This document shows, in pieces, positions 7,875-36,513 of a DNA stretch of 64,000 bases. Position numbers and translations under genes: made by a program. Source of the DNA: Cumulibacter manganitolerans (lineage in GTDB: Bacteria > Actinomycetota > Actinomycetes > Mycobacteriales > Antricoccaceae). Under the pieces are notes generated by a model, which saw nothing but the letters and a program-made list of their open reading frames with translations, did not search any database and was not told where the DNA came from. Position 1 is the first letter of the stretch, and every line of letters starts with the position of its first letter. Location: the NCBI RefSeq assembly GCF_009602465.1, contig NZ_WBKP01000003.1:62001-126000 (forward strand), in the 5' to 3' direction.

Positions 7875-7965
7875 TTCGAGCGACACCCGAAGCGCTGGGT
7901 CGGCCTCGCCCTTTCATTCAGCACGGCAACAAGAACTCCCAATCGGACTCGCGCGACAGCGAGAC

Positions 7966-8015: not shown

Positions 8016-8098
8016 AGTGCTCCTCGCGAGCTGCGTCTCGGTGTTGTATCGGGACTCAGAGTTCCCGTGAGGGATGCAGTCGAGGAACGGAGTCTTCA

Positions 8099-12091: not shown

Positions 12092-12106
12092 AAGGACGCC
12101 TTTCTC

Positions 12107-17296: not shown

Positions 17297-18382
17297 GTGG
17301 CTGCGAACGAGGACAAGCAGGCGACGCTCGACGTGCTGGAAGAGCGCATCGTGCGCTCGGTCGAGGAGCTGGTGTCGGGCGATGACTGGCGGCGGGCGAT
17401 GGAGTTCGCGGCGAGGTTCCGCACGCGCTCGTTCAACAACACGCTGCTGATCTGGGTGCAGCATTTGGAAGCCTACGAACAGGGGCGGGTGCCGACGCCT
17501 ACGCCGACGTGGGTTGCCGGGTACAACGACTGGCGGAAGATGGGTCGCTGGCCGGAGAAGGACGGCGGCTATCGGATTCGCGGTCCGGTCAAGGCGAGGT
17601 TCGCCTCAGCGACCCCGCGCGACCCGGCGTCGTGGCGGCGGCTGGGCAAGTGGGAGAAGCCGCGGCCCAGCGAGGTCGTGCGTCGCCGGATCGTCAACGT
17701 CGTCCCGGCCTATGTGTGGGATGTGTCGAGGACGCACGGCGCATCGCTTCCTGAGCTGCCGCGTCCGAGGCTGCTGGAAGGCGAAGCCCCCGCCGGCCTC
17801 TGGGAAGGCTTGGCCGGGCAGGCGGAGTCGCTGGGGTTCGAGGTGCTGCGGATGCCGCGCGACCGCATGGAGCGGGGCGCGAACGGCTGCACCGACTTCG
17901 AGACCCGTCAGTTGATGGTCTGTGCGGACATGGACCCGGCCGCGCAGGTCAAGACCATCGCGCACGAGCTGGCGCATGTCCGGCTGGATGGCCCGAACCA
18001 GCAGGACGACGCCCGCGAGCATCGCGGGATCAGCGAGGTACGGGCCGAGTCCGTGGCGCTGATGATCGCCGCCGCGCACGGCATGGACACCAGCGACTAC
18101 ACGATCCCGTATGTCGCCGGCTGGGCGGCCAAGGTGGACGGGAAAGACCCGGTGGCGGTCGTGCGCGCTACGGGCGAGCAGGTGCGCAGCACCGCATTCG
18201 ACATCCTCGACAAGCTCGACACGCCGCAGCTCGGCAACGGCAACCCGTTGTCCCTGCGGGTGGACGGCCCACAGCGCACGCCGCAGGCTCAGGAGACGCC
18301 AGAACAGGCGCCGCGCCGGGTCGAGCCGCTGCCGGAACGGGAGACACCGGCGGCTCCGGTCGGCTCGGGACGGGGCCTGTGA
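17297..18382 (+). CDS. ArdC-like antirestriction/ssDNA-binding protein with zinc-peptidase domain
   Basis: 361 aa from a GTG with GGGAGG 7 nt upstream. The N-terminal ~110 residues match the ArdC N-domain (FAARFRTRSFNNTLLIWVQ, WVAGYNDWRKMGRWPEKDGG), which binds single-stranded DNA in plasmid antirestriction proteins. The middle carries TIAHELAHVRLDG, an HExxH zinc site of the ImmA/IrrE type, followed by SEVRAESVALMIAAAHG, which supplies the third ligand region. The tail is Pro/Glu-rich. It is the first gene of the transfer/replication operon and may protect the entering single strand or cut a host factor. Its stop overlaps the next start by TGATG. Confidence 0.8.
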   Translation: MAANEDKQATLDVLEERIVRSVEELVSGDDWRRAMEFAARFRTRSFNNTLLIWVQHLEAYEQGRVPTPTPTWVAGYNDWRKMGRWPEKDGGYRIRGPVKARFASATPRDPASWRRLGKWEKPRPSEVVRRRIVNVVPAYVWDVSRTHGASLPELPRPRLLEGEAPAGLWEGLAGQAESLGFEVLRMPRDRMERGANGCTDFETRQLMVCADMDPAAQVKTIAHELAHVRLDGPNQQDDAREHRGISEVRAESVALMIAAAHGMDTSDYTIPYVAGWAAKVDGKDPVAVVRATGEQVRSTAFDILDKLDTPQLGNGNPLSLRVDGPQRTPQAQETPEQAPRRVEPLPERETPAAPVGSGRGL

Positions 18383-19296
18383 TGGTCGCCGCCGCGACGG
18401 CTGCCGCCGTGTTCGGTCAGCTCGACGGGGCGCCGCTGCCGGTCGCGGCGCGCGAGCTGGCGCGAGCCGGGGTGCCGGTGTTCCCCTGCGCGCCGGGCGG
18501 GAAGCGCCCGATCCCGGAGCGCGGGTTCCACGAGGCCAGCATCGACCTGGACCGGGTTGAGGGGTGGTGGCGGTCGCGGCCGACCGCGAACATCGGCATC
18601 CCGACCGGCGCCGCCTCGGGGCTGGTCGTGATCGACGTGGATGTGCACGGGGTCAACGGGTATGCCGCCTATGCGCGTGCGGCGCGGGCCGGGCTGGTCC
18701 CGGAGCCGTTGGCGGTCGTGCGCACGCCCACCGGCGGACAGCACGCCTACTTCCCGGCCGACTCGCACCAGGCGCAACGATCCTGGCAGGCCGGGAAGGT
18801 CGGCATCGACTGCCGCGGCGACGGCGGCTACATCATCGCGCCGCCCTCGTTGCTGCGGCTGGACGGCGTGCGCACCCCGTACCGGATCGAGCAGGCCGCG
18901 GCCGGTGCTGCCCGGCCGATAGATGCGGGCCGGCTGCGGGACTTCCTTGATCCTCGGCCCGCGCCCCGGCCGCGCCTCGCGGGGCCGGCGCGGCGGGAGG
19001 ACGCGGAGCGGCTGGCAACGTGGCTGGGCCGGCAGGCCACCGACCGCAATCTCAAACTCTTCTGGGCCTCCTGCCGGTTGGCTGAGGGCGGGGTGCCGCT
19101 CGGGGATGCCCTGGACGCGATGGTGACGGCCGCGCAGTCGGATTTCGGGGAGCGGGAAATCACTCGCACCGTCTACAGCGCCTATCGCAGCGTCGGCGTC
19201 GGAGCCCGGCGGGACCGTCCCGCCGCATCGTCTTCGGGCGAGTTCGCTCGCGGGAACGTGCAGCAGCGGGCGCCCGCCACGCGGGGGCTGCCATGA
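18382..19296 (+). CDS. Bifunctional primase-polymerase (Prim-Pol) domain protein
   Basis: 304 aa. The N-terminal ~190 residues are an archaeo-eukaryotic-type Prim-Pol domain: ARAGVPVFPCAPGGKRPI, ANIGIPTGAASGLVVIDVD (metal-binding Asp pair), TPTGGQHAYFP, and GIDCRGDGGYIIAPPS. Such proteins prime DNA synthesis in plasmids and ICEs. No helicase domain follows. The C-terminal ~100 residues are helical (DRNLKLFWASCRLAEGGVPL), as in primase C-terminal domains. It probably primes complementary-strand synthesis or replication of the excised circle. ATGA overlap with the next gene. Confidence 0.85.
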   Translation: MVAAATAAAVFGQLDGAPLPVAARELARAGVPVFPCAPGGKRPIPERGFHEASIDLDRVEGWWRSRPTANIGIPTGAASGLVVIDVDVHGVNGYAAYARAARAGLVPEPLAVVRTPTGGQHAYFPADSHQAQRSWQAGKVGIDCRGDGGYIIAPPSLLRLDGVRTPYRIEQAAAGAARPIDAGRLRDFLDPRPAPRPRLAGPARREDAERLATWLGRQATDRNLKLFWASCRLAEGGVPLGDALDAMVTAAQSDFGEREITRTVYSAYRSVGVGARRDRPAASSSGEFARGNVQQRAPATRGLP

Positions 19297-20003
19297 AGGA
19301 GCTGCGCGGCCGCCGGTGGGCGGTCATCACCTCGGTCGCCGGGACGGTGTTCATCGCCGCCGGCGCGTTCTGGTTGTCGTTCACGTCCCTGGCCGACCTT
19401 GCCCGCCGCTCCGGGATCGGGGCCGGGCAGGCGTGGGCGTGGCCGCTGATCGTCGATGGCGTGATCGTGGTCTCCACGGTCGCCGTGGTGGCCCTCGCCG
19501 GTGAGCGGGCGGCGTGGTATCCGTGGGTGCTGCTGGTCGGCGGCGCCGCAGTGTCGGTGACGGCGAACTCGCTGCACGCGGTGGTCGCGGCCGACGCCGA
19601 CGTGCCCGGCCCGCTCGCGGCCGCGGTCGCTGCTGTGCCGCCGGTCGTGTTGCTGGCGATCACGCATCTGACCGTCGTGCTGACCCGCGCCACCGCACGC
19701 CCCGCTACTGCGCCCGAGGTGCCACCGGCTGTCGAGCCGATCACCCCCGTGCCACAGCGCGAGGCGGCACCTCTCGACCCGCCACCTGCGGAGGCACGCG
19801 TCGCCGCTGCGGATGCGGACGGCGGGCCGGATCGTCGGGTGCTCGCGGCAGAGCTGCGCGAGCAGGACTGGTCGAACAAGGCCATCGCCCGGCACCTGGG
19901 CGTGCATCCCTCGACGGTGGGTCGCTGGCTGCCTCGTGCTCACCAGTCCGATGAGGCGGACCCCTCCGGGTCGCAGCCCGAGATGGAAGGAGCCCTGCCA
20001 TGA
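19293..20003 (+). CDS. DUF2637 membrane protein with C-terminal helix-turn-helix
   Basis: 236 aa. Four hydrophobic segments fill residues ~8-130 (VITSVAGTVFIAAGAFWLSF; WPLIVDGVIVVSTVAVVALA; YPWVLLVGGAAVSVTANSLH; VPPVVLLAITHLTVVL), the DUF2637 pattern found in actinobacterial conjugative plasmids beside Spd/Tra genes. After a Pro/Ala linker, residues ~190-220 form a helix-turn-helix (ELREQDWSNKAIARHLGVHP). A membrane-tethered DNA-binding protein could help position the element or spread it between compartments (inference). It overlaps both neighbours by ATGA. Confidence 0.8.
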   Translation: MKELRGRRWAVITSVAGTVFIAAGAFWLSFTSLADLARRSGIGAGQAWAWPLIVDGVIVVSTVAVVALAGERAAWYPWVLLVGGAAVSVTANSLHAVVAADADVPGPLAAAVAAVPPVVLLAITHLTVVLTRATARPATAPEVPPAVEPITPVPQREAAPLDPPPAEARVAAADADGGPDRRVLAAELREQDWSNKAIARHLGVHPSTVGRWLPRAHQSDEADPSGSQPEMEGALP

Positions 20004-20404: not shown

Positions 20405-20496
20405 CCGGGTGGTGATGAGTCATGGGCGCCCACTCCACAAAGGCGAGACCCGCAGTCGTCTGCGGGTGCACCTCGCCGCCGGGAGGTGCCCAGACC

Positions 20497-21378
20497 ATGA
20501 CCAACGACACCAGCACCATGAGCGAGAGTAGCGGCCGGCCGGCTGAGGACTACCGCACCAGCGAGGGCTTGCGTGCCCTGCTGAAACGGCTCCACGCCGC
20601 CGGTCGCGGCGCCTGGGAGCACGACCCGGTGGCGGCAGAGCTGATGGCGTTCGCGGCTGAGAAGTACGCGGCGCTGGCGCACAAGCACCGGCTCGATCCG
20701 TGGGAGGCCGCGTCGGCGGCGTTCGACGTGATGCGCACCAAGGCCGCCCGCACCGCCGATGACCCGTGGGCGGTCATCACGCACGCGGTGCGGATCACCT
20801 GCATCGCCGAGGAACGCGGCCAAGGGCTGCTGTGCTCGACCCACCAGGCACGCCGACCCCGCTACTCGATATTCCACGACCCCGAACGGCTTTCCGACCG
20901 CGAGAACGTCCTGAGCGACTACCATCCCGCGTTCCAGATCAAGGACGCCCACGACCACGACGACGCCCCGGAGCAGGCACCGGCCGAGCCGGCGGCGACC
21001 ACGGCGGCGTCGGCGGTCGAGGACGCGATCACGCTGCTGATGCTGCTGGACTGGCCGGAGGGCACGGCACGCTCGGCGGTGGAGCACGTCTGCGTGGCGC
21101 TGACCCGCGTCGGGACCCGACACACCGCCTACGAGACGCTGCGACGCGACAAGCACGCCAGAGCCCTGATCGACCTTCCGGGACGCTCCTGGGCGGTGCT
21201 GCTGCGCGCCCTGCTCGGCTGCCCGGACCCGGCGCTCGCGGCGACCGGCGCGGGACGCGGCGTGCTGTTGCGGCTGCTGATCGGCGAGACGTTGCCGGTG
21301 CTGCTGCGCGATGACGACCTCGTGCTCACCCTCTCCCTGGCTACACCGGGTACGACGAAGGCGCGGGGTGCGGGATGA
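20497..21378 (+). CDS. Conserved hypothetical protein of actinobacterial ICEs
   Basis: 293 aa from ATG 20497, chosen because GGGAGGTG lies 8 nt before it. The frame also opens 75 nt upstream. The sequence is helical: YRTSEGLRALLKRLHAAGRG, AFAAEKYAALAHKHRLDPWE and VMRTKAARTADDPWAVITHA recall sigma-factor-like or plasmid-replication-type helical domains, but no catalytic motif is visible. The middle has an acidic linker. Its C-terminal third (WPEGTARSAVEHVCVALTRV) is also helical. It lies between the small basic protein and the ParB-like gene, overlapping the latter by ATGA. A role in element maintenance is possible. Function unknown. Confidence 0.65.
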   Translation: MTNDTSTMSESSGRPAEDYRTSEGLRALLKRLHAAGRGAWEHDPVAAELMAFAAEKYAALAHKHRLDPWEAASAAFDVMRTKAARTADDPWAVITHAVRITCIAEERGQGLLCSTHQARRPRYSIFHDPERLSDRENVLSDYHPAFQIKDAHDHDDAPEQAPAEPAATTAASAVEDAITLLMLLDWPEGTARSAVEHVCVALTRVGTRHTAYETLRRDKHARALIDLPGRSWAVLLRALLGCPDPALAATGAGRGVLLRLLIGETLPVLLRDDDLVLTLSLATPGTTKARGAG

Positions 21379-22394
21379 GCGCGCCGGCCGGACACATCGA
21401 GCTGGAGCGGGCGGTGGACTCCATCACGGTCGGCCATCGGCATCGCACGGACCTGGGCGACCTCGACGCGCTAGCGGCCTCGATCGACCGGGATGGGCTG
21501 TTGCAGCCGCCGACGATCACCCCGGACGGGGTGCTGGTGTGCGGGGCGCGCCGGCTGGCGGCGATCAAGAAGCTCGGCTGGCGTCGAGTCAGCGTGTGGG
21601 TGCGCTCCGGTATCTCGGACCGGCTGGGGCATCTGTTGGCCGAGCAGGACGACAACCAGCTCCACAAGCCGCTCACCCCGATCGAGGCCGAGGCGCTGTA
21701 CCGGGAGATCAAGGAACTCATGGCCGAGGACGCCGCCCGCCGCAAGGCCAAGACCCAGTTCCACGAGGGCCACGAGCCAGGAAAGCATGGTCCCGCCGAT
21801 TCGGCGGGACCATCGGACTCGCACCAGCTCGGAGATGCTCGTGCGCATGCGGCACGGATGGTGACCGGCTCGTCCTCCTACACCCGGCTGGAACAGATCG
21901 GGTACGTGCGACGCTTGGCTGACGACCCGACTGCCTCCGAGACGGTGCGCGCCCAGGCACGGGACGGAGTGACGCAGATCGAGGCCGGCGCGCCGGTCAA
22001 CCCGATCTTCCAACGCCTTCACGACACCCAAGCCGAGGCCGACAGCGAGCGGGACCGGCGGTTGCACGAGCTGGCCGACGAAGCCCTGGCCCGCGTCCAC
22101 GCCACCAAGACCCGCAAGGCCAGCAAGCCGGCCACGCCGAAGCGTCGACCAGCCGCCGAGGACGAGGGGCCGGCGCGGTACCCGGTGCGGGCGTTCGTGC
22201 TGACCTGGGCCGACCTGGAAGGGTGGTGGACCCACTACGACGTGGACGAGCTGGCTGTCGGGCTCACCGATGAGCAGGCCGAGGCGTTCTTCGTCGCCGT
22301 CGAGGGCACCACCGAGTTCGCCGACCAGCTCCGTACCGCCCGCACCACCGCCGCCTCTGAGTCGGCGGGCCGGCCGCTGCTGCGCGCCCTCTGA
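21375..22394 (+). CDS. ParB/Spo0J-like partition or regulatory protein
   Basis: 339 aa. The N-terminal ~100 residues are a ParB/Sulfiredoxin-type domain: HRTDLGDLDALAASIDRDGL, LLQPPTITPDG, then VCGARRLAAIKKLGWRRV, the CTP-binding GxRR-type motif. The middle has a helix-turn-helix region (LTPIEAEALYREIKELM and SSSYTRLEQIGYVRRLADDP). No ParA gene is adjacent, so it may act in element regulation or stabilisation instead of classical partition. The C-terminal ~80 residues (LTWADLEGWWTHYDVDELAV) form a separate domain seen in ICE ParB-like proteins. ATGA overlap with the upstream gene. Confidence 0.8.
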   Translation: MSAPAGHIELERAVDSITVGHRHRTDLGDLDALAASIDRDGLLQPPTITPDGVLVCGARRLAAIKKLGWRRVSVWVRSGISDRLGHLLAEQDDNQLHKPLTPIEAEALYREIKELMAEDAARRKAKTQFHEGHEPGKHGPADSAGPSDSHQLGDARAHAARMVTGSSSYTRLEQIGYVRRLADDPTASETVRAQARDGVTQIEAGAPVNPIFQRLHDTQAEADSERDRRLHELADEALARVHATKTRKASKPATPKRRPAAEDEGPARYPVRAFVLTWADLEGWWTHYDVDELAVGLTDEQAEAFFVAVEGTTEFADQLRTARTTAASESAGRPLLRAL

Positions 22395-25481: not shown

Positions 25482-26852
25482 ATGGGTGTCTGCGACGTTC
25501 CCGTGATTTCGACCGTCTGCGACGTGGCCGGCGAGGCCGCCGCGACGGTCGTGGCCGCCCCGTTCGACTGGCTCGCCCAGGCGATGGGCGGCGCGGCCGG
25601 CTGGCTGATCGAGGCGATGTGGGCCGTGTTCGACACGACCACGCTGGTCGATGTCCAAACGGACGGGTTCACCAGCGTCTACAACCTGATCTTCGGCATC
25701 GGGGTCTTCCTCGTCCTGATCTTCTTCTGCCTGCAACTCATCACCGGGCTGATCCACCGCGACCCGACCGCGCTGTCCCGCGCCGCGCTCGGCGCGGCGA
25801 AATCGGTGCTGGGCGCGTTCGTGGTCGTCACGCTGACCGCGCTCGCGCTGGAAATCGTGGACCAGCTCTGCATCGGCATCATCCAGGCGTCCGGGGAGAC
25901 CACCGGGACGATGGGCGACAAGATCATCCTGCTCGCCGCCGGGCTGAGCGGCATCAATATCGCCGCGCCCGGCGTCGGTGCGATCGTGACGATTTTCCTG
26001 GCTGGGCTGATGATCGCCGCCGTCGCAATCGTCTGGTTCAGCCTGCTTATCCGCAAGGCGCTGCTGCTGGTCGGCGTGGTGCTGGCACCGATCGCGTTCG
26101 CCGGCGCGTCCTGGGACGCCACCAAAGGGTGGATCGGGAAATGGGCGGCGTTCGTGATCGCCCTCATCATCAGCAAGCTCGTGCTCGTCGTCATCTTCTT
26201 GCTGGCGATCACGCAGATCGCCACCCCGATCGAGCTGGACATCGCCGCTGTCACCGAACCGATCACCGGCATCGTGCTCATGGGCATCGCGGCCTTCGCG
26301 CCCTACATGGTCTACCGCTTCGTCTCCTTCGTCGGCTTCGACCTGTACCAGCAGATGGGCACCGAGCAGGAGGCCAAGAACGCCCTCAACCGTCCCGTCC
26401 CGATCCCGTCCAAGACCCAAGGCGGCGGCGAGCCCAAGAAGGTTCTCGAAGACCCCAACGGCGGCGGGTCTGGCGGTGGCTCGGGCGGCACGCCACCGCC
26501 CACGACTCGCGCACCTGCCGCGGGTGGCGGTGGTGCGGGCACGGCCGGAGCCGGAGCGGCGACCGGGGGTGGAGCGGGAGCAGGCGCAGAAGCTGGCGCG
26601 GGAGCGGGGGCCGGTGCTGCGGCCGCGGGACCGGCGGCGGCGGTCGTTGTCGGAGCGCAGGTCGTCAAGGGCACCGCCGAAGCCGGCCCGAAGGCGGGCA
26701 AGGCGGTCGCGGGTCAGGCCGAGACCGCAGCGGGAGCGGCCGACGAGCGCGGTGGCGGCACGCCGCCGCCCCAGACGCCGCCGCCCTCGACGCCGCAGCC
26801 GCGAACTCCGGCGCCGCCCAAGTCCGGGCCGCCGCGGACCGGGAAGGAGTGA
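25482..26852 (+). CDS. VirB6/TrbL-like polytopic conjugation protein
   Basis: 456 aa from ATG 25482 (AGGAG 7 nt upstream; a GTG three bases earlier is in frame). Six or so membrane spans occupy residues ~60-290 (LIFGIGVFLVLIFFCLQLIT; GAFVVVTLTALALEIVDQLC; GAIVTIFLAGLMIAAVAIVW; ALLLVGVVLAPIAFAGASWD; ALIISKLVLVVIFLLAITQI; GIVLMGIAAFAPYMVYRFVS). This is the topology of VirB6/TrbL inner-membrane channel components. The last ~140 residues are low-complexity Gly/Ala/Pro. It probably forms the membrane part of the transfer channel with the SCO6880 and VirB4-like proteins. Confidence 0.85.
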   Translation: MGVCDVPVISTVCDVAGEAAATVVAAPFDWLAQAMGGAAGWLIEAMWAVFDTTTLVDVQTDGFTSVYNLIFGIGVFLVLIFFCLQLITGLIHRDPTALSRAALGAAKSVLGAFVVVTLTALALEIVDQLCIGIIQASGETTGTMGDKIILLAAGLSGINIAAPGVGAIVTIFLAGLMIAAVAIVWFSLLIRKALLLVGVVLAPIAFAGASWDATKGWIGKWAAFVIALIISKLVLVVIFLLAITQIATPIELDIAAVTEPITGIVLMGIAAFAPYMVYRFVSFVGFDLYQQMGTEQEAKNALNRPVPIPSKTQGGGEPKKVLEDPNGGGSGGGSGGTPPPTTRAPAAGGGGAGTAGAGAATGGGAGAGAEAGAGAGAGAAAAGPAAAVVVGAQVVKGTAEAGPKAGKAVAGQAETAAGAADERGGGTPPPQTPPPSTPQPRTPAPPKSGPPRTGKE

Positions 26853-26858
26853 TCGGCC

Positions 26859-28328
26859 ATGCCCACGGCGACGGAACGAAAGACGCCCGGTAGCGAGCTG
26901 ACGCCGATGAAGTTCAGCCGGCTCACCCGCCGCGGGGTACTGCTCGGCCTCTCCGTCTCTCAACTCATCACCCTCGGCATCGGTGGACTGGCGCTGCTAG
27001 CCGCGTTCTACGGCGGCGCCGGGATGCTGCTGGCCTACACCGCCCCGATCTGGCTGCTCGCCGTGGTGCTGACCTGGGTGTCCATCGCCGGGCGGCCGAT
27101 GGTCGAGTGGCTCCCGGTCGCCTGCTGGTGGCTGTGGCGCTCGACCGGCGGGCAACTGCTCTACCGGCGTCGGATCGTCAAGCCTCGACCGGCCGGGAGT
27201 CTCGCGTTGCCAGGCGACATGGCCCGGCTGCGGGAGCACCTGGACCGCGAGACCGGGGCGTGCATGATCCACGACCCCCGCCAGGCGACCTTGACGGTCG
27301 TGACGGAAGTGACCCATCCGGCATTCATCTTGCTGGACCCCGGAGAACAGGAGCGCCGCGTCACCTCATGGGGACGGGTGCTCGCCACGGTCTGCCGCTC
27401 CGGGAGGATCGCGACCCTGCAAGTGCTCGAACGGACCCTGCCGGACTCAGGTAGTGGGCTGGCCGAATGGTGGGCCGAGCACGGCACCGACGACGGCTCC
27501 TGGGCCGCGACCACCTACCGTGAGCTGATCGAGCGGGCCGGCCCCGCCGGGGAACGGCACGCCACGACCGTCAGCCTCTCGCTGGACATGAAGGTCGCGG
27601 GTCGGCAGATCAGGACCGCCGGCGGCGGTATCCGCGGTGCCGCCGCGGTGCTCCGGCAGGAGATGGCGACTCTGGTCGCCGCGCTGCGGTCTGCGGACTT
27701 GACCCCTTCGGGGTGGCTCGGTCCCGGTCAGGTCGCGGTGATCTTGCGCTCGGCGTATGACCCGGCCGTGGCCGCCACCTTGGAGCGGCACGGGCGGCTC
27801 GGGCAGGAGCTTGCCGCAGCCGGCCCGGTCGCGGTCACCGAGACCTGGGGCAACCTGCGCACCGATTCCGCGTGGCACACCGTGCTGTGGGTCTCCGAAT
27901 GGCCTCGCAGCCTCGTTTATCCGGGGTTCCTCGCGCCGGTGCTGCTGTCGACCGGCATCCAACGGTCGGTGTCGCTGATCTACACGCCTATGCGCTCGGA
28001 CCAGGCGGCCCGTGACATCCGTAAGAAGAAGGTCGAGCACATCTCGGATGCGGCCCAGCGCGCCCGGATCGGGCAGATCGAGGACGCCGCGCAGACCGCG
28101 GAATACCAGGACGTGCTGCAACAGGAAGCCGACCTGACCGCCGGCCACGGCGTGCTGCGCGTCTCCGGCCTCATCTCCGTCTCCGCCCCCCGCCTCGACG
28201 AGCTGGAAGCCGCGGTCGCCGCGATCGAACAAGCCTCGATCCAAGCCTCCTGCGAGACCCGAAGGCTCGTCGGCCAGCAAGCGGTCGCGTTCACGGCGGC
28301 CGCGCTGCCGCTGTGCCGCACGGTGTGA
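26859..28328 (+). CDS. SCO6880-family type IV secretion membrane protein
   Basis: 489 aa. Two N-terminal membrane helices (residues ~37-75: LITLGIGGLALLAAFYGGAG; YTAPIWLLAVVLTWVSIAGR) precede a large soluble part with WWLWRSTGGQLLYRRRIVKP, SWGRVLATVCRSGRIATLQV and TTVSLSLDMKVAGRQIRTAG. The order and length match the SCO6880 family, which resembles PrgI plus the N-terminal part of VirB4. In these systems the VirB4 function is split between this protein and the ATPase encoded at 29660-31144. The intervening two genes are small cytoplasmic proteins. Confidence 0.8.
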   Translation: MPTATERKTPGSELTPMKFSRLTRRGVLLGLSVSQLITLGIGGLALLAAFYGGAGMLLAYTAPIWLLAVVLTWVSIAGRPMVEWLPVACWWLWRSTGGQLLYRRRIVKPRPAGSLALPGDMARLREHLDRETGACMIHDPRQATLTVVTEVTHPAFILLDPGEQERRVTSWGRVLATVCRSGRIATLQVLERTLPDSGSGLAEWWAEHGTDDGSWAATTYRELIERAGPAGERHATTVSLSLDMKVAGRQIRTAGGGIRGAAAVLRQEMATLVAALRSADLTPSGWLGPGQVAVILRSAYDPAVAATLERHGRLGQELAAAGPVAVTETWGNLRTDSAWHTVLWVSEWPRSLVYPGFLAPVLLSTGIQRSVSLIYTPMRSDQAARDIRKKKVEHISDAAQRARIGQIEDAAQTAEYQDVLQQEADLTAGHGVLRVSGLISVSAPRLDELEAAVAAIEQASIQASCETRRLVGQQAVAFTAAALPLCRTV

Positions 28329-28377
28329 CCGGCGCGCTCACCTGGCAGGCATCCCACCCCGTTGAAGGAGGCCCGTG

Positions 28378-29175
28378 ATGCCGACATACACGAACCCGAC
28401 CAGCGATGCCAGCGATGCCTACGAGGCGTTGCGCGGTCTGGCTCACGCCAGCCGTAGCTTCGAGGACCCGTCCGAGACCTACGTCGTGATCGGTGAACTG
28501 TTGGGCGGGCTGCGATCGCTGCGGCAGGTGCTCGACCAGCTCGCCGCCGCCCATCTGAGCCGGCAGCATCACGTCACCGACGAGTCCCGCGAGTACAGCG
28601 GCGGTGCGGCCGAGGCGCTGGCCGCAGCGGATGAGCTGCTTCAGGCCGGCACGCTCATCGACCAGGCCGACGACCGCCTCAGCGCGGCCATGACCCACTC
28701 GGGCCGGATCGTGTGGAACCCGCAGGACCGGATGGTGGAGCGGTGGGTCGGCGTCGTGTTCCTCCAAGGTGAGGAAGCCGACCGGGTGATCGACCTCATC
28801 GACGCCCACGGGGTCGAGGCGGGGATCGAGCATCTGTCGGCGTGGGACTACGGCGAGGAGACCACGAACGCCGCCTTGGAGAACGGCGACGTTCACGACA
28901 CCGCCCCGGTCTATCCCGGTGACCGGCAGGCCGAGACCGGCGACTACGCGATGACCTACAACCCGATGGCCGGGCACGTCGCCCTGTACCGGCGGCACCT
29001 GATCCGCGCCGAGGACGCCATCGACAAAGAAGCAGGGGCGCACGTCCCGGCCCGCCGCCCGACGACAGGCCGTGAGCGAGAGACGGCCGGGCGGCGTAGC
29101 GCCGTCCGTGACGGCGGCTGGTTCGAGTATCCCGGCGTTGCCGCGGTCAAGCAGGCCCGCGGGCTGTCGCTCTGA
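28378..29175 (+). CDS. Hypothetical soluble protein of the transfer operon
   Basis: 265 aa. ATG 28378 has AAGGAGG 7 nt upstream. The first ~100 residues are helical (DAYEALRGLAHASRSFEDPS; GELLGGLRSLRQVLDQLAAA; AAADELLQAGTLIDQADDRL), resembling small actinobacterial plasmid helical-bundle proteins. The second half has GRIVWNPQDRMVERWVGVVF and LIDAHGVEAGIEHLSAWDYG, then a disordered basic tail ending GVAAVKQARGLSL. It shows no catalytic or membrane features. Position between SCO6880 and the VirB4-like gene suggests a transfer accessory role. Confidence 0.65.
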   Translation: MPTYTNPTSDASDAYEALRGLAHASRSFEDPSETYVVIGELLGGLRSLRQVLDQLAAAHLSRQHHVTDESREYSGGAAEALAAADELLQAGTLIDQADDRLSAAMTHSGRIVWNPQDRMVERWVGVVFLQGEEADRVIDLIDAHGVEAGIEHLSAWDYGEETTNAALENGDVHDTAPVYPGDRQAETGDYAMTYNPMAGHVALYRRHLIRAEDAIDKEAGAHVPARRPTTGRERETAGRRSAVRDGGWFEYPGVAAVKQARGLSL

Positions 29176-29216
29176 CGTAGCCACCACCGAGACGCGTCGG
29201 CGCGCACCTGCCCGCC

Positions 29217-29663
29217 ATGAACAGCGCAGACCCCGCCGCTCCGATGTCCCGGCAAGTCGGGACGCTCACCTTGACCGTCTGGCCGGACTCGCCGCTGGGC
29301 GAGCACCAGCGACACGCCTACCTCATCGAGGACACCGCGACCGGGCAGACGATCGACGGCCGGGACCTGTTCACCGGCGCCCGCGCGATGCGCGACCTCG
29401 CCGCCTACCTGACCGCGGCCGGCGACGCCCGCCAGTACGCCATCGACAACCCCGGCAGCAGACCCGAGCACGAGGGCCTGTTTCCCGGATGGGTCGCTGA
29501 GGCCGCTCGCCAGAACGCGGACGCGCTGGCCCTGCTCGGCATCGAGGACCCGCCGCAGCCCAAGCCGGACACGCCACGGCAACCTCGCCCGGCGCCGGAC
29601 TCGTCATGGTTCGACCGCCCCGCCGGCGGTTGTGTCTCCGGGACGCGGGGGCGGTCGTTGTGA
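29217..29663 (+). CDS. Hypothetical small protein of the transfer operon
   Basis: 148 aa. The ATG is preceded by GCACCTGCCCGCC, the element's CACCTG leader, instead of a purine-rich site. The fold is not recognised: TLTLTVWPDSPLGEHQRHAY and DTATGQTIDGRDLFTGARAM suggest a small beta/alpha domain, then LFPGWVAEAARQNADALALL and a proline-rich tail. It overlaps the VirB4-like gene by GTGA. Confidence 0.65.
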   Translation: MNSADPAAPMSRQVGTLTLTVWPDSPLGEHQRHAYLIEDTATGQTIDGRDLFTGARAMRDLAAYLTAAGDARQYAIDNPGSRPEHEGLFPGWVAEAARQNADALALLGIEDPPQPKPDTPRQPRPAPDSSWFDRPAGGCVSGTRGRSL

Positions 29664-31144
29664 GCCGGGGCGAGAAGCTGCATACCGCTGTCCTCGTCGC
29701 TCCCGCCTCGGAGCGGCGCCGGCTGCGCAAGCAGCGGCGGCAAGCCGCCGCCCGCCTCGTCGCCGAGCAGCGTCACGTCGAGAAGGAAGCGGCCCAGGCC
29801 AAGGCCGCCGCCGAACGGGCCGAACGCCGCGCCACGGTCTACCTGCCCGCCGCCGGCGAGCCCGGTCCAGCGGCGCTGAGGACACCGGGCCGCTTCCGGG
29901 TACCCCGGCATCAGGACACCAGCGCCGTGCTCGCCGGGCAGTACCCGTTCCTGGCCGAAGCCGGGCTCGGAGCCGCGGGAATCTTCATCGGCCAAGACCT
30001 CTACAGCGGCTCGTCGTTCGTGTACGACCCGTGGGAGTTGTACCGCAGGGGCATCATCACCGCGCCGAACCTGATCTTGGCCGGGATCGTCGGCTCCGGG
30101 AAATCGTCGCTCGCCAAGAGCCTCTACACCCGCAGTCTGCCCTTCGGGTACCGCGTCTACGTTCCCGGCGACCCCAAAGGCGAGCACTCCGGCGTCGCGG
30201 AAGCAGTCGGCGGGAAAGCGATCATCCTCGGGCACGGGATGGGCAACAGGCTCAACCCATTGGATGAGGGCTACCGGCCCGGCGGCCTGTCCGACCAGGA
30301 GTGGGCCACCACCCTCGCCGCGCGACGCCGCGATCTGCTCGGAGCCTTGACCGAGACGGTGCTGGATCGGCGACTGGCGCCGTTGGAGCACACCGCGATC
30401 GACACCGCCCTGGCCGGCGCGGTCCGCGACGCGGACGTGCCGATCCTGCCGATGGTGGTCGACCGGCTACTGCGCCCCGACCCTGCCGACGACCCGGACG
30501 GCCGGCTCACCGAGGACGGCCGCCAGGTCGGCCACGCGCTGCGCCGCCTCGTCGCCGGGGACCTGGCCGGCCTGTTCGACGGTCCGAGCACCGTCAGGTT
30601 CGACCCGTCGCTGCCGATGGTCAGCCTCGACCTCTCGCGCGTCACCGAGAACAGCACGCTGATTTCGGTGCTGATGACCTGCTCGTCGGCATGGATGGAA
30701 GCCGCACTGCTCGACCCCAACGGGGGCCGCAGATGGGTCGTCTACGACGAGGCATGGAGGCTCATGTCCCACCCGGCGCTGCTGCGGAGGATGGACGCGC
30801 ACTGGCGGCTGGCGAGGCACTACGGGCTGGCGAATCTGCTCGTGTTCCACAAGCTCACCGACTTGGAGAACGTCGGCGACGCAGGATCGGCGAACCGGGC
30901 GCTGGCGAACAGCCTGCTGGCGAACGCCGAGACCAGGATCGTCTACCGGCAGGAGACCGATCAGCTCGGCCCGACCGCCATCGCGCTCGGGCTGACCGGC
31001 ACCGAACGCCGCCTGCTGCCCGGACTCGGCACGGGGCAAGGGCTCTGGCGGATCAAAGACCGGGCCTTCGTCGTGCAACACCAACTCCACCCCGCAGAAC
31101 TCGCCGCGTTCGACACCACCGCCCGCATGACCGGCAAAGGCTAG
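29660..31144 (+). CDS. VirB4-like conjugation ATPase
   Basis: 494 aa from GTG 29660, overlapping the previous stop. A basic coiled-coil N-terminus (about 60 residues of Arg/Lys/Ala/Glu) precedes the AAA-type ATPase. Walker A is GIVGSGKSSLAK (residues ~150), followed by VPGDPKGEHSGVA. Walker B is RRWVVYDEAWRLM (near residue 360). The late motifs are ARHYGLANLLVFHKLTDLEN and ANAETRIVYRQETDQLG, as in VirB4/TraC. It lacks the usual VirB4 N-domain, which seems to be supplied by the SCO6880-family protein. It energises channel assembly or substrate transfer. Confidence 0.88.
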   Translation: MSRGEKLHTAVLVAPASERRRLRKQRRQAAARLVAEQRHVEKEAAQAKAAAERAERRATVYLPAAGEPGPAALRTPGRFRVPRHQDTSAVLAGQYPFLAEAGLGAAGIFIGQDLYSGSSFVYDPWELYRRGIITAPNLILAGIVGSGKSSLAKSLYTRSLPFGYRVYVPGDPKGEHSGVAEAVGGKAIILGHGMGNRLNPLDEGYRPGGLSDQEWATTLAARRRDLLGALTETVLDRRLAPLEHTAIDTALAGAVRDADVPILPMVVDRLLRPDPADDPDGRLTEDGRQVGHALRRLVAGDLAGLFDGPSTVRFDPSLPMVSLDLSRVTENSTLISVLMTCSSAWMEAALLDPNGGRRWVVYDEAWRLMSHPALLRRMDAHWRLARHYGLANLLVFHKLTDLENVGDAGSANRALANSLLANAETRIVYRQETDQLGPTAIALGLTGTERRLLPGLGTGQGLWRIKDRAFVVQHQLHPAELAAFDTTARMTGKG

Positions 31145-31150
31145 AAGTTC

Positions 31151-31230
31151 CCCGGATTCCTGAACGTTCGTCGGGATTCCTGACGGTTCATCGGTCGGAC
31201 TGACGGTTCCTCGGGATCGCTGAACAGTTC
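31151..31230 (+). repeat. Four tandem 20-bp repeats with palindromic cores
   Basis: Four consecutive 20-bp units start at 31151, 31171, 31191 and 31211. The second reads TCGGGATTCCTGACGGTTCA. Each has a TGA(A/C)..GTTC core at exactly the same phase (31161, 31181, 31201, 31221). In the first the core is the palindrome GAACGTTC, and in the fourth GAACAGTTC. The period is close to two helical turns, so bound proteins would stack on one face. The 31145-31318 gap holds no gene. Candidates are an operator array for a repressor of the coupling-protein genes, or iteron-like origin repeats. Confidence 0.75.
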
Positions 31231-31318
31231 CTCCCGGAGTCGTGACCGGCCCGGCCGGGAACCCCGCGCGCCCCGCGGCCCTCGACTGTTGCCGGTGGGT
31301 GCGCGTGCACCTGGCGGC

Positions 31319-31837
31319 ATGAGGAAACCCGAGCCGCAACCTGAGCCTGTCCCGGTCTCCATCCCGCTGGTCGTGCTCGATGTGCGCGAGGACGGCACCG
31401 TGACCGTCACCGTCGACGGGAAACGGCTGGACCCCGACCCTTTCGCGCCGCCGTGGCGACGATCCTCGTTCGGGCCGATCATCGACCGCGCCACGAACGA
31501 CCGGACGACACCGGCCAGGGTCGAGGTCCGCGAAGCGGACGGCACGACCTTCACCGACATCATCGCCGCCCGCCGCCGGCGTTCCCGCCCCGAGCCCGAA
31601 CCGGAACCGGAGGCGCCGGCCGGGCCGGTGTTCCACACCGTCGAGGGCGAGGGATTCGTCCCCGGCGAGGACGTGGCGGTCGCCGTCGTCACCGGGCACA
31701 CCGACGCCGCCCACACCGGCACCGCCCGCGCCCTCATCGACCCGGCCGGAGTCAGTGTTGACCACGCCGGCGGGGTCATCGAGATCATCCTGTTCGGCCG
31801 CGTCTCCGGCACCACGATCATCCGGCGACTGCCGTGA
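31319..31837 (+). CDS. Hypothetical beta-rich protein preceding the coupling protein
   Basis: 172 aa from ATG 31319, chosen because the CACCTGGCGGC leader stands right before it. The frame opens 30 nt earlier. The first half has PLVVLDVREDGTVTVTVDGK and RATNDRTTPARVEVREADGT, a small beta domain. The second half, after an acidic/proline linker, is GEGFVPGEDVAVAVVTGHTD followed by more short strands. No motif recognised. It overlaps the coupling-protein gene by GTGA and may be a partner of it. Confidence 0.65.
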   Translation: MRKPEPQPEPVPVSIPLVVLDVREDGTVTVTVDGKRLDPDPFAPPWRRSSFGPIIDRATNDRTTPARVEVREADGTTFTDIIAARRRRSRPEPEPEPEAPAGPVFHTVEGEGFVPGEDVAVAVVTGHTDAAHTGTARALIDPAGVSVDHAGGVIEIILFGRVSGTTIIRRLP

Positions 31838-33612
31838 ACGAGCAGGGCCGGCAGACCGGCTCGTTCGGGGACGAACTGACCAACGCCGCGATGATCGGGC
31901 TGGTCGTCCTGTTCGGCGTCGCGCTGATCCTTCGCGCCGCTGGATCGGTGGCCGCATTCCTGACCGGCACCTCCCAGCCGGCCGGCGATCCCGCCTCCGG
32001 GGTCGAAGTGCTGTTCCGACCGGGCGACCCCGCTGCGGCGCTCGACGCGGACGGCCTGAACCCGGTCGTCTACTGGATCGTCGCCGGGCTGCTGCTCGCC
32101 GGCCTCGTCACCGGCGGGCTATGGGCGTGGCTGCGGCTGCGCCGCCACACCCACCGGATCGAAGCCGACCCGCGCCGCATGGCCGGAATCGCCACCCGGC
32201 ACGAAGTCGCCGCCGCTGCGTCCGAGAAGGCGCTGCTGCGCCGCGCGGGAAACCTGCGCCCCGGTCTGAGCGACCCACGGCCGCAGGACGTGGGCTACCG
32301 GCTCGGCACCTCCAAGGGCACCGGCGTGTGGGCCTCGGTCGAGGACTCGATCATGGTCATCGGCCCGCCCCGCTCCGGGAAGGGCCTGCATCTGGTGATC
32401 CCGGCCATCCTCGACGCGCCCGGCGCCGTCGTCGTCACCTCGACCAGACCGGACAACCTCACCGCGACCATGCGCTCCCGCCGCCGGATCGGCCCCGTCG
32501 CGATCTTCGACCCGCAACACTTGGCCGAGGGCCTGCCCGCCGGTCTGCGCTGGTCACCGATCCGGGGCTGCGAGTCACCACAAACGGCGATGATCCGCGC
32601 CACCGGGCTCGCCGCCGGTACCGGCCTGTCCGCAGGCGGCGTCGACGGCGGAGGCTTCTGGGAAGGCAAGACACGGGCCGCGCTCCAAGCCCTGCTGCAC
32701 GCGGCAGCGATCGACAACCGCCCGCCCGCCGAGCTGTTCCGATGGACTCTCGATCCGACCGCGGCCGCTGACGCGGTGGCGATCCTGACCGGCTCCACCC
32801 AGGCTGCGACCGGGTGGGCCGAGTCCTTGGAAGCGATGATCGACTCCGACCCCCGCACCCGCGACTCCATCTGGCAGGGCGTCTCCCTGGCTCTCGGATC
32901 GCTGGCCGACCCGCGCGTGCTCGACGCCGTATCACCCGGCCCCGGTGAGGGCTTCGACCCCGAAGCGTTCATCCGCGACCGCGGCACGTTGTTCCTGCTG
33001 GCAACCGGGTCCGGTGCCGGAGCCAGCGCCGCGCTGGTCGCCGCGCTCGTGGAAGACCTCATCGAGACCGCCCGCCGCCTGGCCGCACGATCGGCCGGCG
33101 CCCGGCTCGATCCGCCGATGCTGCTGGCGCTGGACGAGATAGCCAACCTCTCGCCATTGCCGTCGCTGCCGACACTGATGGCCGAAGGCGGCGGATCGGG
33201 GATCACGACCATGCCGGTGCTCCAATCGCTCGCGCAGGCGCGGGACAAGTGGAACGAACACCAGGCGAACGCGATCTGGGACGCCTCGATCGTCAAAGTC
33301 ATCCTCGGCGGGGCTTCCAACAGCCGCGACCTGCAAGACCTCAGCGCCCTGGTCGGCGAGCGCGACGAATACACCGACTCCGTGACGCTGGGCGACCACG
33401 GCAGCCGCTCCAACCAGCGCTCCGTGCGCCGGGTGCCGATCTTCCCACCCGACCGCATCCGCCGGCTCCCGTTCGGGACCGGGATCGTGCTACTGCGCTC
33501 CGCACCCCCGATCGTCACCGACCTGCACCCCTGGCCCAAGCGCCCCGACGCCGGCCAACTCACCGCCGACCGCGCCGAGATCGAAACCCTGCTCCGTCGC
33601 TCCGACACCTGA
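31834..33612 (+). CDS. Type IV coupling protein (VirD4/TraG-like)
   Basis: 592 aa from GTG 31834. Two membrane helices (AMIGLVVLFGVALILRAAGS at ~20-40; YWIVAGLLLAGLVTGGLWAW at ~83-103) anchor the protein. The ATPase domain has Walker A GPPRSGKGLHLVIP and Walker B PPMLLALDEIANLSPLPSLP, then TTMPVLQSLAQARDKWNEHQ, the TraG/TraM-recognition region. It docks the relaxase-DNA complex to the channel and pumps DNA. It is the last core transfer gene before the recombinase. Confidence 0.92.
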   Translation: MNEQGRQTGSFGDELTNAAMIGLVVLFGVALILRAAGSVAAFLTGTSQPAGDPASGVEVLFRPGDPAAALDADGLNPVVYWIVAGLLLAGLVTGGLWAWLRLRRHTHRIEADPRRMAGIATRHEVAAAASEKALLRRAGNLRPGLSDPRPQDVGYRLGTSKGTGVWASVEDSIMVIGPPRSGKGLHLVIPAILDAPGAVVVTSTRPDNLTATMRSRRRIGPVAIFDPQHLAEGLPAGLRWSPIRGCESPQTAMIRATGLAAGTGLSAGGVDGGGFWEGKTRAALQALLHAAAIDNRPPAELFRWTLDPTAAADAVAILTGSTQAATGWAESLEAMIDSDPRTRDSIWQGVSLALGSLADPRVLDAVSPGPGEGFDPEAFIRDRGTLFLLATGSGAGASAALVAALVEDLIETARRLAARSAGARLDPPMLLALDEIANLSPLPSLPTLMAEGGGSGITTMPVLQSLAQARDKWNEHQANAIWDASIVKVILGGASNSRDLQDLSALVGERDEYTDSVTLGDHGSRSNQRSVRRVPIFPPDRIRRLPFGTGIVLLRSAPPIVTDLHPWPKRPDAGQLTADRAEIETLLRRSDT

Positions 33613-33692
33613 ACACCGGTCGCGACAAGGAGCACCTGCCCGCCACAACGGCCCGGCACGAACCGGCGCCGGAGAGCAGACAGGAGCACAGC

Positions 33693-34280
33693 ATGTCCGA
33701 CGAACCCCACGGCGACGCCACGACGAACGACGTTCCCGACTCGGATGTGGACCAGATGGACGACGACGGCTACGACGAGCCGCTGATCGCCGAGCCGCCG
33801 CACCCGATCAACTGGAACCTGCTGAGCGCCGACGACGCCGAGGCCGAGTGGTTGGAGCTCAACCGCTGGGTGGACTGGCTGCGCCACACCTACGGGCTCC
33901 CCACCTCCGTGATCCCGCCCGCCTGGCATATGCACCCCGAGCTGCTGTGGGAGCTGAGCGCGCTGCACCTGCACTGGCTCTGCGCCTACGACCCCGACCA
34001 GAACGGCAGCGCACCGCTCGGCTGGCACCGCGACTTCGCCGACGCCCGCCAGCGGCTCCGCGAATGGGTCGCCGCCTGCGGCACCCGGCTCGACCACGAC
34101 CGCCCCACCCGGCAGACCGTCTGGCCCGGCGAGGAACCCGGCAACCCGATCGAGGACATCCCGATCACCGACCGCGACGCCGAGTTCGTGGAGTTCGTCA
34201 TGGCCGACGTCCAGGCCCGCCGCGAGGCCGAGGAAGCGTTCTACCGCGACCTCGACCCGGACACCGGAGAAGTGTCGTGA
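33693..34280 (+). CDS. Hypothetical acidic DUF4913-like protein
   Basis: 195 aa. ATG 33693 follows CAGGAG 6 nt upstream. The frame is open further upstream inside the coupling-protein gene, where it is a shadow. After an Asp-rich start, residues ~50-140 read EWLELNRWVDWLRHTYGLPT, VIPPAWHMHPELLWELSALH and WLCAYDPDQN. This Trp-rich pattern recalls DUF4913 proteins of actinobacterial plasmids and phages. The C-terminus is helical and acidic. It closes the transfer operon and is followed by a strong terminator. Confidence 0.7.
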   Translation: MSDEPHGDATTNDVPDSDVDQMDDDGYDEPLIAEPPHPINWNLLSADDAEAEWLELNRWVDWLRHTYGLPTSVIPPAWHMHPELLWELSALHLHWLCAYDPDQNGSAPLGWHRDFADARQRLREWVAACGTRLDHDRPTRQTVWPGEEPGNPIEDIPITDRDAEFVEFVMADVQARREAEEAFYRDLDPDTGEVS

Positions 34281-34303
34281 GTTCCTGCATCGAAACGAAG
34301 GAA

Positions 34304-34358
34304 AGCGCCGAGGTCGCCGACCTCCGTGAGAGAGGCAGGAACCTCGGCGCTTCCTTTC
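34304..34358 (+). terminator. Strong rho-independent terminator between transfer operon and recombinase gene
   Basis: AGCGCCGAGGT (34304-34314) is the perfect complement of ACCTCGGCGCT (34341-34351), followed by TCCTTTCT. The loop contains a second small stem (CCTC with GAGG). It sits between the end of the transfer operon and the stop codon of the convergent recombinase gene, so it could serve both directions. Confidence 0.8.
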
Positions 34359-34388
34359 TGCCGCTGTCGAGCGATCAGGCCGACTCGA

Positions 34389-35924
34389 TCAGGGCTGCTC
34401 TGATCGAGTCCATCGGTACTGCTCGTGAGGAACGAAACGCGGAGCGATCTTGATGCGGTTCGGGTCGAACTTGCCGCCCAACTGCGGTGCCTTGACCACG
34501 CGAATGTCCAGCAAGAGCTTGACGATCCGTCGCTTCTCCAACAGGTCCAGCCGCTCCCACGCGCTCTCAATGTCCTCGGCCTGCAAGAGCCGAAGCACGT
34601 CGTCGGCGGATACCGGAGGCACCGTCGCCTTCGCCGCCTGCTCAATCTCCGGGTTCAGACGCCGCTCGATGCTCGACAGCATCGTGAGGCTGATCCTGCC
34701 TGCGGCGTATTCCTCGGCGGCCTGATCGAGGCGCTGGCGAAGCCGCGCCACTTGTGCCTCGGCCTCCTGGACGCGCTCGTGCCAGTTCTCGCTTGGCCCA
34801 GCGATCACCGCCAAGCTCTCGGGCTTGGCGAGCCAGCCCAGCAGGGCGCCAACCACGTAAGCATCAGTGCGAGGGATGTCGATACTGATCCTTCGGCATC
34901 CGACAGTCGGGCAGGCGTAGTTGTCGCGTCGCGTCCCGTCCTTACGCGGCACCATCCCGTGCAGACGGACCAGCGGCCCCGAGCAGTAGCCGCACTTCGC
35001 GATGAACGACAGCAGCCACTTCGGATGGCTGTGGTTGTCCTCTTCGACGTACCGGGTACGGCGTGCTCGATCTTCGAGCACCCGGTTGACCTGCTCCCAA
35101 CGGTCACGAGGGATGATCGCCGGCCAGTCCGCCTCACCGATCACCTTGCCCTGATACTTCCGCAGGCCGGCGATCGTCGGGCTCCTGAGCATCTGCCGCA
35201 GCGTCGAGTTCATCCAGCCGCGCGAGTGGTCAGAAGTCGGCTTCATCGGAGTCGGAATACCGGCCTTGTTCAGCCGGGTCACGATCGCGTTCATCGGAAC
35301 ACCACTCAGAATCTCGTCCACGGCGTTGACGATGATCGCGGCCTTCTCCGGGTCGATTTCCTGACGGAGAAGCACCCCGGTGTGCTCGTCATAAACGCGG
35401 CGGTAGCCGAACGGAAGACGACCGTGTGGCCTGCCCTGCTGCGCGTGCAGGCGCACCGTGCGGAGCTGTCGCTCCCGGATCACCGCGGCGTCCTTCTCGG
35501 CGGTCAGGAACTCCAAACCCATCATGAACGCATCGTCGCTCCGGGCGAAGTCATAGACCCGTCCCTTCGTCAGATACAGCACCCCGGCCTCCTGGCAGGC
35601 GGCGCGGAGCTGGACGTAGGCCAACAGCTCGCGGCCCGCACGCGACGGCTCCCAAGTCACGAAGGCGTCATACTGCTTCGACGCGATCAGGCGCAGGGCT
35701 TCCTCGAAACCCTCGCGCTCGCGGGTGCGCCACTGCGAGGCGGAGCGGTTGGCGTCGGTGATGACCTTGCCGACGTGCCACGTCTGCTGGTCGCACCAGG
35801 AGCGGCAGTCGGTCTCTTGATCGTCGGTGGATCGCATGAGGTACTGGCGATCCATCGAGGCTCGGGTGTAGATGAGAGCATTGACCTCATCATCGGTCGG
35901 TCGAGTGAGTGCTTGCGTTTTCAT
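34389..35924 (-). CDS. Large serine recombinase (site-specific integrase/excisionase)
   Basis: 511 aa from ATG 35924. The frame stays open upstream into the ABC-F fragment, but the family's N-terminus starts here. The resolvase domain begins ALIYTRASMDRQYLMRSTDD with the nucleophilic Ser 23 and conserved Arg residues. The recombinase domain follows (GRPHGRLPFGYRRVYD; LNKAGIPTPMKP; LRQMLRSPTIAGLRKYQGKV), then a zinc ribbon (CGYCSGPLVRLHG and YACPTVGC) and a coiled coil (QEAEAQVARLRQRLDQAAEE). It catalyses integration at attB and, with a directionality factor, excision. It reads inward from the right junction. No directionality-factor gene was identified. Confidence 0.95.
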   Translation of the reverse strand: MKTQALTRPTDDEVNALIYTRASMDRQYLMRSTDDQETDCRSWCDQQTWHVGKVITDANRSASQWRTREREGFEEALRLIASKQYDAFVTWEPSRAGRELLAYVQLRAACQEAGVLYLTKGRVYDFARSDDAFMMGLEFLTAEKDAAVIRERQLRTVRLHAQQGRPHGRLPFGYRRVYDEHTGVLLRQEIDPEKAAIIVNAVDEILSGVPMNAIVTRLNKAGIPTPMKPTSDHSRGWMNSTLRQMLRSPTIAGLRKYQGKVIGEADWPAIIPRDRWEQVNRVLEDRARRTRYVEEDNHSHPKWLLSFIAKCGYCSGPLVRLHGMVPRKDGTRRDNYACPTVGCRRISIDIPRTDAYVVGALLGWLAKPESLAVIAGPSENWHERVQEAEAQVARLRQRLDQAAEEYAAGRISLTMLSSIERRLNPEIEQAAKATVPPVSADDVLRLLQAEDIESAWERLDLLEKRRIVKLLLDIRVVKAPQLGGKFDPNRIKIAPRFVPHEQYRWTRSEQP

Positions 35925-35949
35925 GGCGATCAGGTGCTCCGTGCTGTAC

Positions 35950-35970
35950 GGGGTTCCTGATTGCTGGGTG
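35950..35970. other. Right attachment junction (attR) of the element within an ABC-F gene
   Basis: Left of about 35960 the sequence belongs to the element. From GAGCCGACCAACGACCTG onward it encodes EPTNDLD, the end of the Walker B/D-loop of an ABC-F ATPase. The residue before it is Gly (GGT), where ABC-F proteins have Asp. The crossover therefore lies at or just before GGTGAGCC. Large serine recombinases act at a 2-bp core inside such a site. The matching attL lies outside the window to the left. Confidence 0.7.
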
Positions 35971-36482
35971 AGCCGACCAACGACCTGGACGTCGACACCC
36001 TCACCGCACTCGAGGACCTGCTCGACGGCTGGCCGGGCACGCTGCTGGTGGTCTCGCACGACCGCTACCTGCTCGAGCGGGTCACCGACGACCAGCTCGC
36101 GGTGCTCGGCGACGGCACGCTGCGGCACCTGCCCGGCGGGGTGGGGCAGTACCTCGAGCTGCGCAAGCACCAGCTCGCCGCGTCGGCGGGTGCCGGGGCG
36201 GCCGGCTCGGCTACGGCCTCCGCCACGACCGCGCCGGCCGCCGGCGGGACGGCGAAGGCCGGCTCGGCGGAGCAGCGCGAGGCGCGCAAGACCCTCGCCC
36301 GGATCGAGCGCCGGCTCGAGGCGCTCGCCGTGCAGGAGAAGAAGCTGCACGGCGATCTCGCGACGCACGCCAGCGACTTCGAGAAGGTCCGCGAGCTGAA
36401 CAAGCAGCTGCGGGGCATCGAGGCCGAGCGCGACGACCTCGAGGAGCAGTGGATGGCCGCGGCGGAGCTCACCGCCGACTGA
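35961..36482 (+). pseudogene. 3' fragment of ABC-F family ATPase gene, split by the element
   Basis: About 173 codons remain. They start in the D-loop (EPTNDLDVDTLTALEDLLDG), contain the switch histidine (LLVVSHDRYLLERVTD) and end in the C-terminal coiled coil (EARKTLARIERRLEALAVQE, AERDDLEEQWMAAAEL) typical of Uup-like ABC-F proteins. These act on ribosomes or on replication/recombination intermediates. Both Walker A motifs, the signature motif and most of Walker B are missing, so this piece cannot hydrolyse ATP. The 5' part should be on the far side of the element, outside this window. Excision would restore the gene. Confidence 0.85.
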
Positions 36483-36513
36483 CGGCCAGCCGGACGCCGG
36501 CACTGGGACCGAA

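Follow-up and report, generated by a model that had tools for sequence, protein, structure and literature searches.

A helically phased array of 13-bp palindromes common to an actinobacterial conjugative element and its passenger transposons: a candidate multi-box operator

Tandem palindromic operators of cooperative repressors are known from the met boxes of MetJ and from the operators of KorB and omega. Among mobile elements, the T4SS-based ICEs of Actinobacteria bring together an integrase, VirB4, VirD4/T4CP and a TrwC relaxase, and 17 such elements were reported in the part of the source available to us (PMC3218068). Transposons of the Tn554 family, SE and GInt are described, in the accessible parts of two papers, as site-specific elements that insert at gene ends, carry cargo and encode Tyr recombinases together with a small third protein; GInt has an outward promoter (PMC10214605, PMC5385486). 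Titles and abstracts, together with parts of PMC5385486, PMC10214605, PMC6868719, PMC8138268 and PMC3218068, yielded no paper on the array or on the virB4 insertion site described below, subscription papers being mostly out of reach.

The array lies in a conjugative element that carries a split VirB4, a TraG coupling protein, a TrwC-type relaxase gene, a Prim-Pol gene and a large serine recombinase. The 3.9-Mb host genome contains three elements of this kind, e1 in the window (the whole stretch of 64,000 nucleotides that was analysed) and e2 and e3 on contig C2. The features of e1 that matter here, in window coordinates, are as follows.

18379..19296, + strand: element-encoded Prim-Pol domain protein, at a distance of 12 kb from the array
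26859..28328, + strand: N-terminal VirB4-like part (SCO6880 family)
29606..31144, + strand: virB4C, the C-terminal half of the split VirB4-like transfer ATPase (NF045971, 5e-15; TIGR00929, 9e-6)
31145..31233, no strand: 20-bp-period array (partial unit and four units), the lag-20 maximum of the window
31151..31163, no strand: palindromic box 1 (CCCGGATTCCTGA)
31171..31183, no strand: palindromic box 2 (TCGGGATTCCTGA), closest to the consensus, matrix score 19.7 of a maximum of 21.3
31191..31203, no strand: box 3 (TCGGTCGGACTGA), degenerate, placed by the 20-bp register
31211..31223, no strand: box 4 (TCGGGATCGCTGA), weak, matrix score 11.6
31308..31322, + strand: conserved start motif CACCT-N6-ATGA
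31319..31837, + strand: p182, a 172-aa protein without family match, the first gene past the array
31834..33612, + strand: TraG/VirD4-like coupling protein (PF12696, PF02534)
34389..36503, - strand: reading frame with a large serine recombinase, the element integrase, at residues ~209-554 (PF00239, PF07508)

The initial annotation had placed the repeats in an empty gap of about 170 bp upstream of the coupling-protein genes, in an element with a primase-polymerase, and both points are borne out: 174 bp separate the virB4C stop (31144) from the ATG at 31319 and contain the array, and the Prim-Pol domain protein is encoded by the element. The recombinase forms the right end of the element, and the N-terminal extension of its reading frame overlaps host sequence. 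A 185-bp repeat of 75% identity (35979-36163 and -5399 to -5218) flanks the element within the C-terminal part of an ABC transporter gene and is probably the integration site, with replacement of the gene end. The relaxase gene occupies about -3313 to 253; its identity comes from the family match of the e2 homologue, whose counterpart in e1 spans this interval. Element cargo at 2914-12705 consists of two tandem kdp operons (74% identical) with kdpD and a response regulator behind them. The interval 25606-35141 (9,536 bp) is 100% identical in locus L084 (JAFKEN010000007.1), a metagenome-assembled Actinomycetales genome, reflecting either recent transfer or the same population.

The 20-bp array is real. 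A partial unit, AAGTTCCCCGGATTCC (31145-31160), precedes four full units, TGAACGTTCGTCGGGATTCC (31161), TGACGGTTCATCGGTCGGAC (31181), TGACGGTTCCTCGGGATCGC (31201) and TGAACAGTTCCTC... (31221). Four repeats with an exact 20-bp period had been described at first; the four units stand, and the GTTC cores of the first three keep the exact phase, but the fourth is offset by one inserted base (TGAACAGTTC). Likewise, the TGA(A/C)..GTTC core is present, but as the weaker of two dyads, the stronger palindrome being the box between the TGAM and GTTC cores (C/TCGGGATTCCTGA). The core of the array is thus a 13-bp palindrome, TCRGGAWTCCYGA, with box centres two helical turns apart, and since the TGAM.GTTC flanks between boxes form a second dyad, half-sites alternate at intervals of about 10 bp (lag 10 is raised too). 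The lag-20 self-match at the array, 39/62, is the top value at that lag in the 64-kb window, and none of 60 first-order Markov copies matched it (maximum 36). Sixty-eight sites align over the 13-bp core to T-C-R-G-G-A-W-T-C-C-Y-G-A, symmetric around W, with a box spacing of 20 in 34 of 43 spacings; these sites come from a matrix that was seeded on the array units and is partly circular, and a second matrix, trained only on sites upstream of tnpA, was made to avoid this circularity. A search of 30000-33000 against Rfam gave no match up to E 1, which points to no known RNA family.

How far is the array conserved? One scan returned 561 relatives of virB4C, of which the best 80 were analysed. Among these 80, p182 was found within the stretch in 40, 29 of them with a gap of up to 200 bp and 11 with a gap of 638-3201 bp; the remaining 40 yielded no p182, which in some is due to the end of the contig. 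The tnpA-trained matrix, with a background of one match per 10.5 kb, finds at least one box in 13 of the 14 relatives whose gap falls within 61-200 bp (observed range 61-178 bp) and none in the 15 with a gap of up to 51 bp. Given that 15 of the 29 short-gap relatives have no box, the site is dispensable. Two or three boxes at a distance of 20 or 40 bp occur in five of the 14 longer-gap relatives (one being L084, identical to the window), and the same matrix finds further arrays in L170, L172, L169 and e3. When no motif model is used, lag 20 ranks first in autocorrelation across 16 non-redundant gaps (z 8.0; 23 gaps reduced to 16 by similarity), in the 14 gaps left after exclusion of e1 and e2 (z 5.8) and in nine tnpA upstream regions (z 10.0). 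Clusters of boxes in the scanned element slices are confined to the virB4C-p182 gap and to tnpA. In one group of relatives (e.g. L133, L158, L111) the boxes lie within the last virB4C codons and end at the p182 ATG; as translated by eye they appear to fall in different frames, which may point to a constraint at the DNA level.

Conservation of the number and phase of the units, raised by the initial annotation, holds in part. The co-resident element e2, whose virB4C is 79% identical to that of e1, carries the TGAM..TTC unit at the corresponding place, also in four copies and in the same phase, with TCT instead of TTC in one copy; as in e1, the units follow the 14-bp start AAGTTCCCCGGATT, the remainder having diverged. 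The 20-bp phase is likewise kept in several lineages, but in many relatives the array is absent or replaced. In e3, one or two units are left on each flank of about 5.5 kb of inserted genes. L086 is 97.8% identical to e1 to the left (31135 and leftward) and 95.8% to the right (31308 and rightward), yet where e1 has the 172 bp that include the array, L086 has a different 67 bp with a single box, and the left edge of the replacement is the transposon insertion point. That the gap was swapped despite flanks of 96-98% identity indicates that the module turns over like transposon ends. A simple lack of conservation in close relatives was not found. A strict array pattern matched in 33 of 397 genomes of the order, and 30 of the matching loci were read individually; nearly all of those outside the own genome look like chance. 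A distant virB4 has one such match (G007, L080 6247-6325) at its 3' end, but within coding sequence and in the opposite direction, and it was not counted; its 20-bp repeats reflect either chance or deep conservation. A scan of viral contigs returned no relative, and a plasmid scan 13 records, mostly short traG pieces.

In relatives, cargo transposons insert at the 3' end of virB4C. Cargo insertions of 4.4-16.9 kb between virB4C and p182 were measurable in 13 of the 16 regions fetched; one of the remaining regions had none and two had no virB4C match. Five of these 13 insertions have a gene trio homologous to the one in e3, namely a Tyr recombinase (tnpA, PF00589), a small XRE protein (HTH_26) and a second recombinase-like protein of 588 aa without family. 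L194 and L196 share 11,109 bp at 99.84% identity, beginning at the same base after virB4C, whereas their host elements differ, with virB4C matching the query family at about 99% and 80%; two different ICEs hold this element at one and the same site, so that insertion is site-specific. The e3 copy of the transposon is 99.9% identical over 2,748 bp to one in Intrasporangium. The inserts of L197, L198 and L206 (4,432, 4,434 and 4,429 bp) match one another and part of L196 and L199, and have the look of genes resident in one lineage, not of transposons. The site, at about 31135, is a cargo hot spot in relatives (up to 16.9 kb), with transposons apparently in tandem in L199 and L200.

Upstream of tnpA, arrays with 20-bp spacing stand at a fixed distance from the ATG in 7/9 diverged Tyr-recombinase transposons, at the same four positions in L218, L219, L220 and L222 and at three of the four in L210, L211 and L215; in the other two of the nine regions examined, L212 and L213, no clear array or boxes were seen. 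The nine regions derive from 13 loci, L214 and L217 being too near a contig end and L216 and L221 near-duplicates. A -10-like heptamer, GTANNNT, lies within the array at -42 of tnpA in 7/9; in L212 and L213, where the assumed tnpA start is set three bases later, a similar heptamer is correspondingly found three bases further. The array regions of e1 and e2 contain no TANNNT. At the right end of the transposon, going outward, [C/T]ACCT-N7-ATG and a short frame follow in 8/11. This frame ends at the virB4C stop in L220 and L221, and in L210 and L215 its stop appears, from the sequence, to overlap the p182 start.

What are the boxes for? The array shows the symmetric box in constant helical phase that is expected of a cooperative operator array, and of the functions first proposed for the array a cooperative repressor operator fits best, in view of the symmetric box, the 20-bp phasing and the position of the array over the putative tnpA promoter. 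On balance, we lean towards reading the array as an operator of several boxes, at which a dimeric regulator would act cooperatively on p182/traG and on tnpA. A dimeric (or paired-monomer) DNA-binding protein would bind each 13-bp palindrome, and with boxes two helical turns apart neighbouring dimers could touch on one face of the DNA and bind cooperatively. By repression at the array, p182 and traG would be controlled separately from the virB4 genes. Since the same array also lies over the putative tnpA promoter of the transposons at the virB4 3' end, element and passenger would share one regulator.

A serious though unlikely alternative takes the boxes for arm-type sites of the transposon recombinases or of an accessory factor, the arrays without a transposon being remnants of past insertions (solo ends). 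Arrays do lie at the tnpA-proximal end of the transposon, with a single box at the opposite end; the insertion point of the transposons directly adjoins the array of the element; the layout [array]-[CACCT-N7-ATG] is common to transposon right ends and transposon-less gaps; and the gap swapped in L086 has its left edge at the insertion point. As this turnover through transposon ends is real, the footprint explanation keeps the weight given to it here. However, transposons are also found in the box-less element type, in which p182 is coupled directly to virB4 and no array is expected, and the right flanks of L210 and L215 resemble those of the array-less L137 and L119; the element array is thus not needed as a target. 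Moreover, L169, which is filled, keeps the three boxes of the element whole beside p182, as in the empty L170, and in e3 too the array stays next to p182 after insertion. The element array is therefore neither destroyed by insertion nor required for it. The array of the transposon also overlaps the putative tnpA promoter at a fixed place, which speaks against arm-type sites.

A part in oriT, or in a site for a relaxosome accessory protein, is improbable. The array is in the transfer region and adjoins the coupling protein, and oriT regions often carry repeats, but the TrwC-type relaxase gene is about 31 kb away with flanks of its own, the array is missing in many relatives with the same transfer genes, and it is present upstream of tnpA in transposons. 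We give still less credence to iterons of a replication origin used after excision, the other function first proposed. A row of about four 20-bp direct repeats does look like plasmid iterons, and the element has a Prim-Pol gene; yet that gene is 12 kb off, the scanned proteins yielded no replication initiator domain and no initiator is recognisable nearby, many close relatives are without the array, and it is also seen in front of recombinase genes and, in part, within the coding sequence of virB4. A chance tandem duplication without function, which would suit the degradation of two of the four window boxes, is just as hard to credit, because the period and the motif turn up again in diverged elements and transposons, and the cross-trained matrix already disfavours it.

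For the operator, no regulator was found among the proteins tested. The XRE protein of the transposon was rejected as a sufficient regulator, as some array-bearing genomes contain no close copy of it: no copy at 65% or more (best 35%) is present in the genomes of L111, L123, L133, L141, L153, L158 and L161, an absence that is soft as several are draft or metagenome assemblies. Within this set, L141 is itself without a box by the tnpA-trained matrix, and the genome of L161 carries the box-bearing L170. HTH_26 has four matches in the own genome, of which only the transposon copy is within the element slices examined. Two proteins conserved between e1 and e2 are candidates only, a ParB-like protein (21375-22394; parB_part 1e-5, below the curated cut-off) and an HTH_23 protein (19293-20003).

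We also propose, tentatively, that the passenger transposon took over the promoter-operator module of its host element. With tnpA wired to the regulator of the coupling-protein genes, the transposon would move as the element prepares transfer, while at its outer end the outward start signal and the short frame into the virB4 tail would restore expression of the genes cut off. If true, this would show how a conjugative element can house a transposon that leaves it functional and keeps step with it.

The start signal recurs elsewhere. CACCT-N6/7-ATGA occurs in the window at 22436, 29205 and 31308 (+) and at 35921 (-), the last probably marking the start of the serine recombinase. Eight occurrences were found in 363 kb of strand searched (contigs C2 and C3), most at starts of element genes (22447, 29217, 31319, with counterparts in e2 and the transposon). 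The GCACCT form has 21 distinct occurrences in 80 loci, mostly at the starts of p182 and of a 148-aa gene, with none in the reversed control. The motif is possibly a special promoter or start signal. A 318-aa core protein (20422-21378) was found in 22/22 genomes searched, and the leader of its gene holds a near-invariant GCGCACCTGCCTG.CAGGAGGTGC block, a possible hairpin around the ribosome site. Its AlphaFold model has a mean pLDDT of 69.9, with Foldseek matches at E 1.4 or worse. In VIA the top eight rows are all sigma-factor structures, mostly over residues 32-172 with two reaching about 290, at Z 5.6-7.6, below the helical-noise level named by the tool; the predicted fold weakly resembles sigma factors. 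Profile-profile comparison with 17 sigma region-2 sequences was negative, no better than shuffles; a sigma factor is rejected here and is at most a lead.

For a family of actinobacterial ICEs that is large, judging by the number of virB4C relatives in a single scan, but poorly described, these results supply a concrete candidate operator and a concrete insertion site, and the array provides a defined 89-bp probe for fishing out its regulator. In gene content the element is like the T4SS-based actinobacterial ICEs, with integrase, VirB4, VirD4/T4CP and TrwC relaxase, but the available part of their description includes neither an array nor an insertion hot spot (PMC3218068). The virB4 transposon resembles Tn554, SE and GInt, as far as the accessible parts of the two papers describe them, in being site-specific, in its Tyr recombinase, small third protein and cargo, and in gene-end insertion (PMC10214605, PMC5385486). 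It differs from what is given there in that its third gene encodes an HTH_26 XRE protein, its second recombinase-like protein (588 aa) is without family match, and its target is the 3' end of virB4 inside an ICE; the 4 x 20-bp array at its tnpA end has no mention in those parts of PMC10214605 and PMC5385486. As for the array itself, short palindromes are repeated in helical register upstream of or over putative promoters, much as in the operators of MetJ, KorB and omega. Unlike these, it has a 13-bp box at 20-bp spacing and a regulator that is only putative, and it is common to a conjugative element and its passenger transposon.
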